In this document: positions 13,910 to 61,345 of the stretch, in pieces
Layout: each line of letters starts with the position of its first letter
Position numbering within the stretch: the first letter of the stretch is position 1
Source: Croceivirga sp.
Lineage (GTDB): Bacteria; Bacteroidota; Bacteroidia; Flavobacteriales; Flavobacteriaceae
Assembly: GCA_028284665.1 (NCBI GenBank)
Contig: JANQRG010000019.1
Span: 62,001 to 126,000 of the forward strand
DNA length: 64,000 nucleotides
Reading direction: 5' to 3'
The notes under the pieces: generated by a model
Told to the model about the DNA's origin: nothing
Databases searched by the model: none
Seen by the model: only the letters and a program-made list of their open reading frames with translations
Program-made: the position numbers and the translations under genes

Positions 13910-14536
13910 ATGAGTTTAGTTCGGCTAAAAATAAAGGGCATATCGTACAGCCAAACCCAAAACGGGGCGTACGCACTTATTTTAAATGAGGTAGAAGGCG
14001 ATCGAAAGCTTCCCATTGTCATAGGGGCATTTGAAGCCCAGTCCATAGCCATCGCCCTTGAAAAGGAGATCAAACCACCCCGGCCCCTAACCCATGATCT
14101 GTTCAAAAATTTTTGTGACCGCTTTGGGATAGTGATCAAACAAGTGATCATTCACAAACTGGTGGATGGTGTGTTCTATTCCAGTATTATCAGCGAACGG
14201 GAAGGTGAAGAAGAAATAGTTGATGCACGGACCAGCGATGCCATTGCATTGGCGTTGCGCTTTGGCGCCCCTATTTTTACCTACAAGACCATTTTGGACA
14301 AGGCAGGTATTTTCCTAAAGTTTTCCTCCAAGGAAAAAGATGAAGAAGGAGACGATAGCATTGTAGTTGATGAGATACTTCAGGAAGGGGAAACGGTAGA
14401 AATTGAATCGGGAGGTAGCGAGGCCTACCGGGAAATGACCTTGGACGAACTCCATAAAGAATTAGACAAAGCCGTGGCCAACGAAGACTACGAGAAGGCG
14501 GCCAAACTTCGCGACGAGATTTCCAAACGGAAGTAA
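13910..14536 (+). CDS. Bifunctional nuclease (BFN/DUF151) domain protein with C-terminal UVR motif
   Basis: MSLVRLKIKGISYSQTQNGAYALILNEVEGDRKLPIVIGAFEAQSIAIALE; C-terminal LDKAVANEDYEKAAKLRDEISKRK. Start at 13910 preferred. Confidence 0.9.
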   Translation: MSLVRLKIKGISYSQTQNGAYALILNEVEGDRKLPIVIGAFEAQSIAIALEKEIKPPRPLTHDLFKNFCDRFGIVIKQVIIHKLVDGVFYSSIISEREGEEEIVDARTSDAIALALRFGAPIFTYKTILDKAGIFLKFSSKEKDEEGDDSIVVDEILQEGETVEIESGGSEAYREMTLDELHKELDKAVANEDYEKAAKLRDEISKRK

Positions 14537-14552
14537 AACCAATCATTCTTAT

Positions 14553-15977
14553 ATGAAGAAAACCGGGGTTTTAGTGCTTGTACTGCTCTTTGCAGGTATT
14601 GGAGCACTCTTCGGTCAGGAAAAGGTTGTTGTAGATACCCTACATTCCGTTGATAGTATGGTCCCCAACCAGGGATTTTCCATACACAGCTTGTGGCGCG
14701 GGGCACTGGGCATGGCCGTGCTGGTTGGTATTTCCTATCTGTTTAGCGCCAACCGAAGGGCCATTAACTGGAAAACAGTGGGCATTGGGTTGGCCATTCA
14801 ACTAATTTTAGCCTTGGGTATTTTGAAAGTGCCCTTCATCCAAATGATTTTTGATCTTCTTGGGAGGTTTTTTAACGAGATTCTCAACTTTACATTAGCG
14901 GGAAGCACATTTATGTTCGGAAATCTTTTGGATCTTGATAATCCAAACATAGGATACATATTCGCTTTTCAAATTTTACCAACCATTGTATTCTTCTCTG
15001 CATTAACCTCGGTTCTTTACTATTTTGGAATTATTCAAAAAATTGTAAAAGGACTCGCTTGGCTTTTAACCAAATTTTTAGGCATTTCAGGTGCAGAAAG
15101 CCTATCAGTTGCTGGAAACATTTTCTTAGGACAGACCGAGGCACCTTTATTAATAAAGGCGTATCTCGAAAAGATGAATAAGTCTGAAATTCTTTTGGTA
15201 ATGATCGGGGGAATGGCAACCGTAGCCGGTGGAGTTCTAGCCGCATACATCGGTTTTTTGGGAGGTAATGACGAGGCTTTGCGCATTGAATTCGCAAGAC
15301 ATTTGATCGCGGCTTCTGTTATGGCAGCCCCCGGGGCGATTGTAGTTTCCAAAATATTATATCCCCAAACCGAAACCGTAAATAAGGAAATTCAGATTTC
15401 CACCACCAAATTTGGTAGTAACGTACTTGATGCCATTTCCAATGGTACCACCGAAGGTTTACGTTTAGCTGTTAACGTTGGGGCAATGCTCTTAATATTT
15501 ATAGCGTTCATCGCAATGATAAATGGAGGATTGGAGTTAATTGGTGAAATCGGATCATTCAACGACTGGGTTGCTGCCAATTCTCCGTATGAAAAATTTT
15601 CACTTGAAAGTATCATGGGGGTCCTCTTTGCACCATTAATGTGGTTGATAGGGGTAAATTCTGAAGATGTCATGTTGATGGGGCAATTGTTAGGGATCAA
15701 GCTGGCGGCTAGTGAGTTTGTAGGCTATACCCAGTTGGCAGAGCTAAAAGATATCACCAGTGTTACGCGTTTTACCTACAACAAATCCGTGATCATGGCC
15801 ACCTATATGCTCTGTGGTTTCGCGAATTTTGCCTCTATCGGTATCCAAATTGGGGGAATTGGCTCCTTGGCGCCCGGACAACGCAAAACCCTTTCCGAAT
15901 TCGGGATGCGAGCCGTTTTAGGGGGTTCGCTGGCCTCTTTGCTTTCGGCTACTATTGCCGGGATGATCTTGGGATAG
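14553..15977 (+). CDS. NupC/CNT-family nucleoside transporter
   Basis: 474 aa; SVAGNIFLGQTEAPLLIKAYL, GGMATVAGGVLAAYIGFLG, CGFANFASIGIQIGGIGSLAPGQR. Confidence 0.93.
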   Translation: MKKTGVLVLVLLFAGIGALFGQEKVVVDTLHSVDSMVPNQGFSIHSLWRGALGMAVLVGISYLFSANRRAINWKTVGIGLAIQLILALGILKVPFIQMIFDLLGRFFNEILNFTLAGSTFMFGNLLDLDNPNIGYIFAFQILPTIVFFSALTSVLYYFGIIQKIVKGLAWLLTKFLGISGAESLSVAGNIFLGQTEAPLLIKAYLEKMNKSEILLVMIGGMATVAGGVLAAYIGFLGGNDEALRIEFARHLIAASVMAAPGAIVVSKILYPQTETVNKEIQISTTKFGSNVLDAISNGTTEGLRLAVNVGAMLLIFIAFIAMINGGLELIGEIGSFNDWVAANSPYEKFSLESIMGVLFAPLMWLIGVNSEDVMLMGQLLGIKLAASEFVGYTQLAELKDITSVTRFTYNKSVIMATYMLCGFANFASIGIQIGGIGSLAPGQRKTLSEFGMRAVLGGSLASLLSATIAGMILG

Positions 15978-15981
15978 CTTC

Positions 15982-16132
15982 ATGGGTTAAAGGTGAAGGG
16001 GTAAAAGGTGAAGGGGTAAAAGGTGAAGGGTGAAAAAGGTGAAGGGTGAAAAAGGTGAAGGGTGAAAGGGTTGAGGATAAAAGGTGAAAGGGTTGAGGGT
16101 GAAAGGGTTGAAGGTGAAGGGTATTGGTGATT
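15982..16132 (+). repeat. 151-nt C-free degenerate tandem tract (15-16 bp units, GGGTAAAAGGTGAAG-like)
   Basis: No C between 15981 and 16133 on the + strand; repeated units GGGGTAAAAGGTGAA, GGGTGAAAAAGGTGAA, GGGTGAAAGGGTTGA. Confidence 0.92.
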
Positions 16133-16161
16133 CTTAGTCAACGATCGATAACATTCTGCAA

Positions 16162-16515
16162 ATGAGAAATTTCAGGGAATTGGAAGTGTGGCAGGATGCC
16201 CGGCAACTTGTTAAGGAAGCCTATCAACTTTCAAAACTACTTCCTGATAGCGAAAAGTATGGGCTGGTATCCCAAATTAATCGTTGTGCCGTTTCTATTC
16301 CTGCTAATATCGCTGAAGGCTGTGCAAAATATTCACAAAAGGACTTTGTACGATTTCTTCAGATAAGTCTGGGTTCCACTTACGAATTGGAAACACATTT
16401 TATTCTTTGTGCTGATTTACAGCTTGTTGGATCAGAAGAATCCGCTCAAATCATTGAAAAGGTTCAGCGTTTACAAAAGCGAATTAGCTCGTTAATAAAA
16501 TACAATAACTCCTAG
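16162..16515 (+). CDS. Four-helix-bundle protein of the S23 / 23S rRNA intervening-sequence family
   Basis: 117 aa; FRELEVWQDARQLVKEAYQLSKLLPDSEKYGLVSQINRCAVSIPANIAEGCAKYSQKDFVRFLQISLGSTYELETHF matches the family pattern. Confidence 0.93.
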   Translation: MRNFRELEVWQDARQLVKEAYQLSKLLPDSEKYGLVSQINRCAVSIPANIAEGCAKYSQKDFVRFLQISLGSTYELETHFILCADLQLVGSEESAQIIEKVQRLQKRISSLIKYNNS

Positions 16516-16521
16516 CCTAAA

Positions 16522-16552
16522 ACCCTTCACCTTTTCCCCTTTCCATTTTACC
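16522..16552 (+). repeat. Right arm of inverted repeat flanking the S23 gene
   Basis: ACCCTTCACCTTTTCCCCTTTCCATTTTACC; its reverse complement matches 16000-16031 at 28 of 31 aligned positions plus one gap. Surrounding 16516-16564 has no G until the thyA ATG. Confidence 0.9.
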
Positions 16553-16562
16553 TTTATACCTT

Positions 16563-17387
16563 ATGAAACAATACCACGATTTACTACAACATATTTTAGA
16601 TACCGGCGCCCAAAAAGGCGACCGAACCGGAACGGGAACACTAAGTGTTTTTGGCTATCAAATGCGGTTTGACCTGGAAGAAGGCTTTCCTATGGTGACC
16701 ACCAAAAAACTACACTTAAAATCAATTATCCACGAGTTACTCTGGTTTTTAAAAGGCGATACCAATGTGACCTATTTACAGGAAAACGGCGTACGGATCT
16801 GGAACGAATGGGCGGATGCGAACGGGGATCTCGGTCCTGTTTACGGGCATCAATGGCGGAATTGGAACAATGAGGAGATTGACCAGATCAAAGCCGTGAT
16901 CCAAAGTTTAAAGACTAACCCCAACAGTCGTCGCATGCTGGTCTCTGCCTGGAATCCCAGTGTGCTACCGGATACTTCGGTTTCCTTCAGTGAAAATGTG
17001 GCCAATGGCAAGGCGGCGCTACCCCCCTGCCATGCCTTTTTCCAGTTTTATGTAGCGGACGGTAGGTTAAGTTGCCAGCTGTATCAACGCAGTGCAGATG
17101 TGTTTTTAGGGGTGCCTTTTAATATCGCCAGTTACGCGCTCCTGACCCTAATGATCGCGCAGGTTGCCGGTTACCAGCCCGGGGAATTTATCCACACCTT
17201 TGGGGATGTTCATATCTACAACAACCATTTGGAACAGGTACAGCTGCAATTATCCCGGGAACCCCGGCCACTACCTACCATGCAGCTCAACCCGGAAGTA
17301 ACGGATATTTTTGATTTTACTTTTGAGGACTTCACCTTGTTACATTACGATCCGTATCCAGCGATCAAAGCGATGGTGGCGGTGTAG
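16563..17387 (+). CDS. thyA: Thymidylate synthase
   Basis: [70 protein letters not shown]. Confidence 0.98.
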
Positions 17388-17396
17388 TCTTTGTAC

Positions 17397-18221
17397 ATGA
17401 AAGGCGTTATCTTAATCTATGCTTTGTTGTTCTTTTCCCTATTGTCTGCACAGGAAAGGTTAGTATACTTTCCTCAAGAACAATTAATTCTAGAACAATG
17501 TGAGAACACCGAAAATCCTAATTCTTGCCTTTATTCTTATTATGACCAGAAAATACAAGCGTTATTAAAATCAAAAAAGGGCCTTAAACTGCTTAGACAA
17601 CTTGATTCGGATACTTTGAAAACTGGAGGTTTTATTGTTGTCACCAAGGATGGACAAATCATTAAGGACAAAAGCCGATTGTTCCTGAAAAATAAAAGAC
17701 TCAATGATAAGCTCCATCCCGCCTTCGAAAATCTTTTTTTTCAAGAAAGTTTTAAAAAAGTTAGAAATTATAAGACCCCGCCGTTCTTTGCAACACACCC
17801 CTTTTCTTTCGATTATGCCATTACGAGATCAAAAGACATTATTTCACTTCGACTTTTAGCAAATGAAGAAGGGTACTCTGGTGGAGTTATTATAGAAGTC
17901 CCGATATTTCCCGGTTGCGAAGCGGTACATCCTAGTGAAATGCAACCTTGTTTTCAACAAAAGATTGAAGAACACATAAAATATCATTTTCGCTACCCCA
18001 AGAAGGCACTAAACAGAGGTATCTCCGGAACTGTTAATGTTATGATAGTTATTGATAAAAACGGAGCGATCAGTGAAAGTAAGGCTAAAGGACCCCATGA
18101 ATTACTCGAGAGTGAGGCACTTCGTATTGTAAACTTGTTACCAAAAATGACCCCCGCAAAGAAAAATGGCAAAACGGCCAAAATTCCATTTTCATTTCCC
18201 ATGTATTTCAAGTTAAAATAA
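17397..18221 (+). CDS. Secreted protein with TonB C-terminal-like domain
   Basis: MKGVILIYALLFFSLLSAQ signal peptide; C-terminal YPKKALNRGISGTVNVMIVIDKNGAISESKAKGPHELLESEALRIVNLLPKM parallels 4282..4983. Confidence 0.82.
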   Translation: MKGVILIYALLFFSLLSAQERLVYFPQEQLILEQCENTENPNSCLYSYYDQKIQALLKSKKGLKLLRQLDSDTLKTGGFIVVTKDGQIIKDKSRLFLKNKRLNDKLHPAFENLFFQESFKKVRNYKTPPFFATHPFSFDYAITRSKDIISLRLLANEEGYSGGVIIEVPIFPGCEAVHPSEMQPCFQQKIEEHIKYHFRYPKKALNRGISGTVNVMIVIDKNGAISESKAKGPHELLESEALRIVNLLPKMTPAKKNGKTAKIPFSFPMYFKLK

Positions 18222-20399: not shown

Positions 20400-22145
20400 C
20401 TAGTTTCTGGTTACCATAATGCTGTTGGATAGACCGTAAAGCCCTTCAAGATCAGCAACATTGTTTCCGGCGGCCAATCCTGTCAATCCGTCTTCATAAC
20501 GCATATACCAGATAAAACAAACCCCTGGCCCGGCAGCATCAAAATCCACACCTTCCACATCGGCCAAGGTTGGGGGTAATCCCAAAATGTTATTCTGATC
20601 ATCTGTGATCACCCAGGTACGGTTTGTCCCTGTAGCGTTACTACTGTCCAGTAGTATCCCGCTGACCATATCAGGAGTTCCATCTACATCAAAGGTGAAG
20701 GGTCCCCCGGAAATTGTTCCGGCATTTGGGTTACGATACACCCGAATGGCATTGGACAGCGCAAAGTAACCACTCAAATCCCCGGCGTTTTGCCCGGCTT
20801 CCAAGCCCATAATTCCATCTTCATAGGTAATGTGCCAAATAAGGCATAGTCCGATCCCGGCAGCGTCGAAGTCAACACCTTCCACAGCTTCCAGGGTTGG
20901 CGGTAAGCCCAGGATATTCAGTGCGTCATCAGTAATGATATACCCCTGATTAGAACCATTCAGGTCGGTATCATCCAGGGTAATTCCACTGACCCTATCC
21001 GGAGTACCATCTACGGCGAACATGTACGGCCCTCCATTCAATACGCCGGCATTCAATGCCAGGCGATCAACAACAATGAAGTTGGAAAGACCAAATTGCC
21101 CGGTCAGATCGTCCAGGTTATTTCCCATTTCCAATCCTCCTAATCCTGTGGAATAGGTTAAGTGATAGATATAGCAACGCCCCACTCCGGCACCATCAAA
21201 ATCTACTCCCTCAACAGCTTCCAGGGTTGGTGGGATCCCAAGAATGTTTCGACTGTCATCCGTGATCACATAGGTTTGGTTAGCCCCATTCAGATTTGTA
21301 TCATCCAGTGTTATCCCGCTTACCATATCCGGGGAGCCATCTACTACAAATTCATAGGGACCTCCTGAAAGTTCCCCGGCATTCAAGGCGATCCGATCTA
21401 CCTCTATAAAATTGGAAAGGTCAAATTGTCCTGTGAGATCATCCAGGTTACTGCCCATTTCCAATCCTCCTAATCCTGTGGAATAGGTTAGGTGATAGAT
21501 ATAGCAACGCCCTACTCCCGCGCCATCAAAATCAACCCCTTCAACAGCTTCCAAGGTTGGTGGGATCCCGAGGATGTTCCGGCTGTCATCTGTAATGATA
21601 TAGGTTTGGCTGGTCCCATTCAAATTGGTGTCATCCAACATAATACCACTTATCATATCCGGAACACCATCTACCACAAATTCAAAAGGACCCCCCGATA
21701 ACTCTCCGGCATTCAGCGCCCCACGGTTCACCATAATAAAATTGGAGAGGTCAAAATCTCCTATCAAATCGTCCAGATTCTCTCCTTCGGCAAGACCAGA
21801 GAGCCCTTCATTATAGGTAATATGATAAATATAGCAGTCCCCCACTCCTGCCATATCAAAATCTACACCTTCCACCGCTTCAAGTGTGGGCGGCAATCCC
21901 AAAACATTTCTTGCATCATCGGTTATCACATAGTTTTGCACATCACCAGCACCGGTAAAGTCAGATAAAGTGATCCCGCTTACCATGTCCGGCACGCCAT
22001 CTACTGTAAAACTAAAAGGACCACCGGAAAGTTGTCCGGCATCTAATTGGACTACCTCCGAGCCTCCATCGGAATCATCTTCTTCACAGGCCCATAGGAG
22101 CAGGCCTAACGAAGCAATAAGAGCAATTGTTTTTAAGTTGTTCAT
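20400..22145 (-). CDS. Lipoprotein with five tandem ~107-aa repeats
   Basis: Lipobox LLLWACEEDD; five copies of LNAGELSGGPFxFxVDGxPDMVSGI...ITDDxRNILGxPPTLEAVEGVDFDxAGxGxCxIxHxTY...GLxxLDDLxGxFxLSNxIxVxR. Confidence 0.92.
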   Translation of the reverse strand: MNNLKTIALIASLGLLLWACEEDDSDGGSEVVQLDAGQLSGGPFSFTVDGVPDMVSGITLSDFTGAGDVQNYVITDDARNVLGLPPTLEAVEGVDFDMAGVGDCYIYHITYNEGLSGLAEGENLDDLIGDFDLSNFIMVNRGALNAGELSGGPFEFVVDGVPDMISGIMLDDTNLNGTSQTYIITDDSRNILGIPPTLEAVEGVDFDGAGVGRCYIYHLTYSTGLGGLEMGSNLDDLTGQFDLSNFIEVDRIALNAGELSGGPYEFVVDGSPDMVSGITLDDTNLNGANQTYVITDDSRNILGIPPTLEAVEGVDFDGAGVGRCYIYHLTYSTGLGGLEMGNNLDDLTGQFGLSNFIVVDRLALNAGVLNGGPYMFAVDGTPDRVSGITLDDTDLNGSNQGYIITDDALNILGLPPTLEAVEGVDFDAAGIGLCLIWHITYEDGIMGLEAGQNAGDLSGYFALSNAIRVYRNPNAGTISGGPFTFDVDGTPDMVSGILLDSSNATGTNRTWVITDDQNNILGLPPTLADVEGVDFDAAGPGVCFIWYMRYEDGLTGLAAGNNVADLEGLYGLSNSIMVTRN

Positions 22146-61263: not shown

Positions 61264-61270
61264 CCCCTTT

Positions 61271-61345
61271 GGCATTCCAACACTCTTTTGTCATTCCAGC
61301 ACCCTTTTGTCATTCCCGCTCCCTTTTGTCATTCCTGCCCTTCGT
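61271..61345 (+). repeat. Four imperfect 19-bp tandem units merging into a REP-like hairpin
   Basis: CATTCCAACACTCTTTTGT / CATTCCAGCACCCTTTTGT / CATTCCCGCTCCCTTTTGT / CATTCCTGCCCTTCG. Confidence 0.85.

Follow-up and report, generated by a model that had tools for sequence, protein, structure and literature searches.

A candidate stand-alone S23 element, boxed by complementary heptad arms and resembling rRNA intervening sequences, between nupC and thyA of Croceivirga sp.

The locus described here lies in a 64,000-nucleotide stretch of DNA from Croceivirga sp. (GCA_028284665.1, contig JANQRG010000019.1, positions 62,001-126,000 of the forward strand), referred to below as the window and used for all coordinates. 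All features of the locus are on the plus strand. It is bounded by two open reading frames (ORFs) that lie outside the element: nupC (nucleoside transporter, 14553..15977) upstream and thyA (thymidylate synthase, 16563..17387) downstream. Both names are taken from an earlier note on this DNA. Among 11 genomes of the genus, nupC is the neighbour at both S23-bearing and S23-free sites, and thyA is present in 11 of 11. The sole annotated gene between them is S23, which encodes a four-helix-bundle protein of 117 aa (16162..16515); the element has no transposase gene. The S23 gene is preceded by a C-free tandem tract (the 5' arm, 15982..16132) and a leader running from this arm to the S23 start codon (16133..16161, also conserved in L017 and L018, both close relatives), and is followed by a G-free complement of the 5' arm (the 3' arm, 16516..16562; CCCTTCACCTTTTCCCCTTTCCATTTTACC). 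The borders of the element are the borders of the genes, and the empty sites in relatives are diverged. No Rfam family matched within 14500-17500. A search of 15900-16600 for sigma-70-like promoters and intrinsic terminators found none, a result that carries weak information for Bacteroidota.

The absence of C upstream of S23, pointed out in the earlier note, extends over 151 nt (15982-16132). The second-longest such run of the window has 43 nt, and the 773 kb of genome read contain no longer run free of C or G. The downstream stretch of about 49 nt was likewise found to be G-free (16516-16564, extending past the 3' arm); taken alone it is unexceptional, because two longer G-free runs (56 and 50 nt) occur in the window. 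The tandem unit of the 5' tract is 15 nt, GGGTAAAAGGTGAAG, composed of 7+8 nt (GGGTAAA AGGTGAAG), with a core at 15984-16122. Tandem Repeats Finder also reports a period of 7 (18.6 copies of GGGTGAA, 65% matches), and the 15-nt unit (7+8) fits better.

The complementarity of the two arms holds as first reported: when 16000-16031 (32 nt) is aligned with the reverse-complemented 16522-16552 (31 nt), 28 of 31 positions agree and a single 1-nt gap is needed. The 773 kb were also scanned for inverted pairs of similar spacing; these arms, approximately 500 nt apart, have the top score (41), against 35 for the highest-scoring pair that lacks S23. The scan yielded 90 places, another three S23 loci among them, and the places with the strongest 7-nt self-match in the 5' arm (at least 0.44) enclose S23 in 3 of 3 cases. 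Specificity was measured on these 773 kb and on about 400 kb from each of three other genomes. Elsewhere in the window and genome the word AAGGTGAAGGG occurs at chance level, and it was rejected as a family-wide word, being confined to the nupC-thyA site and its close orthologs.

The S23 protein matches PF05635 (E 2.5e-37) and TIGR02436. Its nearest solved relative is 2gsc of Xanthomonas, which is reported to form a pentamer of four-helix bundles (PMC4990558), and the family is homologous to Avd of diversity-generating retroelements (PMC10053308). Comparison of the gene with its counterpart in G001 gives 15 synonymous and 0 nonsynonymous differences (dN/dS 0), and comparison with G008 gives a dN/dS of 0.054, showing that the protein is under purifying selection. 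The best other S23 in this genome is 43% identical. Of 61 Bacteroidota genomes sampled, 45 contain the family, one of them in 17 copies.

The generality of this layout was surveyed in 80 S23 loci of public genomes, then in Bacteroidota genomes and then in other phyla, yielding 191 non-redundant loci, mostly from Bacteroidota with additions from Planctomycetota, Gemmatimonadota and Pseudomonadota. Across these loci both flanks show autocorrelation peaks at 7, 14 and 21 nt. Complementary arms are significant (p<=0.05, from composition-preserving shuffles) in 149 of 191, leaving about a fifth (42) without significant arms. The flanks of 373-388 other genes at the same loci have neither the 7-nt period nor arm pairing. 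Arms were found in 17 of 28 loci of the gammaproteobacterial set and also surround plasmid-borne S23 genes of Nostoc, Anabaena, Calothrix, Geminocystis and Azospirillum, some of these plasmid-borne elements sitting inside cas or ribonucleotide reductase operons. Nearly everywhere a 7-nt word upstream of S23 is mirrored by its reverse complement downstream, and the word changes from locus to locus: AAGTATC in Algoriphagus, AGGTATT in Winogradskyella, GATGTGA before trpD, GTTGATG before argH, AGAGTCA in a planctomycete and GGTTTCA in Wenzhouxiangella. The signature common to S23 loci is period 7 plus complementarity, not the word. A boxed layout with differing words surrounds S23 in most relatives, in at least five bacterial phyla, and the description of S23 with complementary ends as an IVS-like unit outside rRNA is borne out as a general arrangement. 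The contrary outcome named in the earlier note, S23 uniformly lacking inverted flanks in relatives, did not occur.

Two variants were seen in the course of this survey. Direct instead of inverted heptads lie on both sides of S23 at L119 and L223 (planctomycete G118) and at L291 (Pseudanabaena). S23 elements within CRISPR operons of cyanobacterial plasmids were seen at L291, L292 (cas6-cas4) and L297 (cas10-cmr3). A '23S rRNA IVP' appears in a published figure of CRISPR-associated domains (PMC10910872); the association may reflect passenger insertion, and in annotation S23 genes in cas operons are probably better regarded as passengers of an element than as CRISPR components.

The spacing of the parts was taken as medians from co-directional loci. 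The 5' arm begins 3 nt after the upstream stop codon, is 30 nt in length and ends 29 nt before the S23 start; the 3' arm begins 7.5 nt after the S23 stop and ends 9 nt before the next start codon. The element spans the whole gap between the upstream stop codon and the start codon that follows. G outnumbers C in the 5' arm at 94 of the 99 informative co-directional loci, and also at 8 of 10 loci with S23 opposed to its upstream neighbour; therefore, arm polarity belongs to S23. Strictly C-free 5' arms occur in 31 of 146 loci, and the C-free/G-free state seen here is the extreme of this general G-over-C bias. S23 is co-oriented with both neighbours in 136 of 163 loci, compared with 239 of 334 background triples (a moderate enrichment only), and is antisense to the upstream neighbour in 13 of 163. 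A CCTCGA-containing leader, possibly a promoter or regulatory RNA, is conserved between the 5' arm and the S23 start in L072-L096 and in L107 and L115 (Kordia). On the other side of the gene, the stretch GTTAATAAAGTTTTCATAAATC is conserved between the 3' arm and thyA in L073, L074, L084, L086, L087 and L094 (Allomuricauda/Flagellimonas).

Within the genus, the S23 gene and its arms are gained and lost together. Arms are present at 10 of 10 sites with intact S23 (nupC-thyA, trpG-trpD and argH) and at 0 of 15 S23-free nupC-thyA and trpG-trpD sites, so the flanks do not occur equally often without the gene, an outcome that the earlier note had entertained. At the nupC-thyA junction, S23 and arms are found in G000, G001 and G008, seven S23-free junctions have no arms, and in G002 an insert interrupts the gene, whose arms are worn. 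At trpG-trpD, three S23 junctions have arms and eight S23-free junctions do not. The argH site shows four intact S23 copies with arms as well as several stages of decay: an internally deleted S23 with arms still on both sides in G000 and G001; loss of the 5' arm and reduction of S23 to its last codons in G006, with the 3' arm kept as in G010; and a lone heptad tract in G008. These decayed and lone arms show that lone tracts can be footprints of lost elements. The G002 insert (L063, L019) is a MITE-like sequence of approximately 180 nt, placed after about 89 S23 codons and having the inverted ends GAGCCTGTTTAGGAATTTG ... CAAATTCCCAAACTGGCTC. At the argH junctions L342 (G005) and L343 (G003) there are short S23-free hairpins of heptad-like words, resembling a minimal arm pair.

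Heptad tracts are present even in a genome without any S23 gene. When the proteins flanking eight lone tracts were searched against the surveyed S23 loci, no S23 was found at their junctions; relic origin is thus shown only at argH, and the view of lone tracts as relics in general is not supported beyond that site. Heptad density is 15 and 9 per Mb in S23-rich genomes versus 5 and 2.6 in the others (n=4 genomes). Long S23-free intergenic tracts were noted at G000:C9:30446-30529 and C9:42530-42610 and at L020, L024, L025 and L026; most are C-free on the transcript strand of their neighbours, like the 5' arm. Another S23-free site, G000:C9:341-425, carries the heptads AGAATGC.. and TAATTCG.. between rpsN and rpsH (named by sequence).

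The history of the nupC-thyA copy was followed on a tree of 163 S23 proteins, in which changes of the label 'beside thyA' were counted against shuffled labels. The label changes 2 times, compared with about 30 when shuffled; therefore, this copy is inherited and has been patchily lost. Of the suggestion that S23 and its flanks form a stand-alone mobile or RNA-level element, the stand-alone part holds, whereas recent mobility at this site is not supported. This genome and its sister G001 agree at 47 of 47 positions of the 3' arm, and the 5' arm of G001 is one 15-nt unit shorter. The arms vary by tandem-repeat slippage with complementarity kept. When thyA-site orthologs are compared, a 5' arm matches the 3' arm of its own locus more closely than the 3' arms of other species (permutation p=0.0025), a preference that grows with divergence: the arms of orthologous loci evolve in concert. 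In the tRNA-Leu introns of cyanobacteria, which are group I introns without S23, complementary heptads on both strands of the P6b stem also evolve together.

The evidence on the RNA folding proposed in the earlier note is mixed. The predicted RNA fold of 15978-16562 contains 42 arm-arm base pairs. If pairing of the transcript were under selection, G-U would be expected to exceed A-C among arm mismatches; there is no such excess (171 vs 183), nor any difference in stability between sense and antisense stems, and selection at the RNA level was rejected on these grounds. Complementarity, whatever its use, is probably kept by DNA-level correction between the inverted arms, plus slippage. Because G-U excess, the signature of an RNA strand, is absent, excision by RNase III is a step that we infer; it is the least certain part of the account, and a DNA-level role would be its main rival.

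Several parts of this arrangement are already known: rRNA intervening sequences (IVSs) with S23, heptameric intergenic repeats, the Coxiella heptamers and the homology of S23 with Avd. S23-coding IVSs of rRNA are cut by RNase III at a terminal stem (PMC4990558). They share with the present element a PF05635 ORF between complementary ends able to form a stem, but lie in a 23S rRNA helix rather than between protein genes such as nupC and thyA. The Coxiella IVS carries S23; RNase III cleaves its 28-bp terminal stem, tandem GACAGAT heptamers lie just ahead of the S23 start in a copy number that varies among strains, and the gene itself is reported as decaying (PMC4990558); here, in contrast, the arms themselves are heptad arrays and S23 is under purifying selection. 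Heptad repeats (STRR, LSSR) have been described in cyanobacteria, in Xanthomonas (GGGAATC) and in Beggiatoaceae (TAACTGA) (PMC4692102, PMC4679880), and the Xanthomonas word forms 70 and 75 inverted pairs in two genomes (PMC4692102). These are likewise intergenic 7-nt tandem arrays, some in inverted pairs; in the present case they enclose S23 and the word varies among loci within one genome. The papers on these repeats draw no connection with S23 (PMC4692102, PMC4679880), and we found no link of S23 genes to intergenic heptad repeats in the open-licence literature searched.

Avd is a relative of PF05635 in fold and sequence (PMC10053308), but functions together with a reverse transcriptase and template/variable repeats, whereas nupC and thyA are the direct neighbours in the present case. 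MITEs and REP-like repeats are also short intergenic units with inverted ends; unlike them, the S23 copies share no end sequence, contain a conserved protein gene and have tandem arrays as arms. Insertion sequences and DNA transposons differ in that the element at nupC-thyA has no transposase and shows neither near-identical copies in the genome nor scattered positions in the protein tree. Within the open literature that was searched, three aspects are new: the coupling of non-rRNA S23 genes to complementary, locus-specific heptad arms across phyla, the joint gain and loss of S23 and its arms, and the concerted evolution of the arms.

The general layout, joint gain and loss, concerted arms and purifying selection together lead us to regard the locus as, with reasonable probability, a stand-alone IVS-like S23 element outside rRNA, of a widespread kind boxed by locus-specific complementary heptad arms. 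Such an element would be a free-standing relative of the intervening sequences that encode S23 within 23S rRNA. Arm-to-arm correction at the DNA level, for example by hairpin template switching, would be the simplest account of how complementarity is kept. In a read-through transcript the arms are predicted to close a stem around the S23 message, and by analogy with rRNA IVSs RNase III may cut this stem and free the message from its neighbours. To judge from the S23/Avd fold family, the stem or hairpin of the element itself is the probable binding target of the protein. At nupC-thyA the element has been inherited and is not recently mobile.

Alternatively, the arms could act as hairpins or terminal inverted repeats in rare transposition or copying, with S23 as a DNA-binding cofactor and the RNA stem incidental. 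The strand symmetry of arm mismatches, the equal stability of sense and antisense stems, the insertions that oppose the direction of the upstream neighbour and the internally deleted copies that retain arms, as non-autonomous elements do, are all consistent with this proposal. We nevertheless think it rather unlikely: there is no transposase, the thyA lineage is strongly faithful to its site, arm polarity tracks the S23 sense strand, and paralogs within a genome differ in their words, which recent transposition copies should share. Since the 3' arm abuts the thyA start codon, a regulatory cassette was also considered, in which the S23 protein and the arm stem would regulate how the next gene, in this case thyA, is translated. 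The median of 9 nt between 3' arm and next start codon would suit such a role, as would the conservation of S23 and the full conservation of the 3' arm between two species. The genes found downstream (thyA, argH, trpD, pyrF, cas4 and cmr3) are, however, functionally unrelated, and most sister species have the same junction without the element, making this role highly improbable. An origin as ordinary polymerase-slippage heptads of intergenic DNA, linked to S23 only through a shared preference for short intergenic spaces, is already disfavoured and deserves hardly any credence. Such heptads are a common simple-repeat class in many bacterial genomes (PMC4692102; PMC4679880, citing Mrazek), and lone tracts do occur in the genomes studied here; however, slippage alone leaves the inverted orientation and complementarity unexplained, control gene flanks have neither period nor pairing, S23-free orthologous junctions have no tracts, and the nupC-thyA locus is the top inverted pair in 773 kb.

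An IVS-like element of this kind would give a consistent DNA context to a very common orphan family, and would tie S23 to heptanucleotide repeats whose origin the cited papers leave open. The layout suggests that a family of elements combining a gene with repeats has been overlooked; such a family is a possible source of some of the puzzling 7-letter repeats in bacterial genomes. In a broader form, which we put forward tentatively as possible but not probable, S23 proteins would be the agents of phylum-spanning IVS-like elements, promoting or guarding 7-nt arms; many bacterial heptad repeats, including cyanobacterial STRRs and the Xanthomonas GGGAATC pairs, would be their arms or footprints, and rRNA IVSs the special case that landed in rRNA.

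Two other repeats were noted in the window: a 330-nt repeat of 2.5 copies at 21046-21881, and a 19-nt tandem repeat (CCCTTTTGTCATTCCAGCA) of 3.8 copies at 61264-61335.
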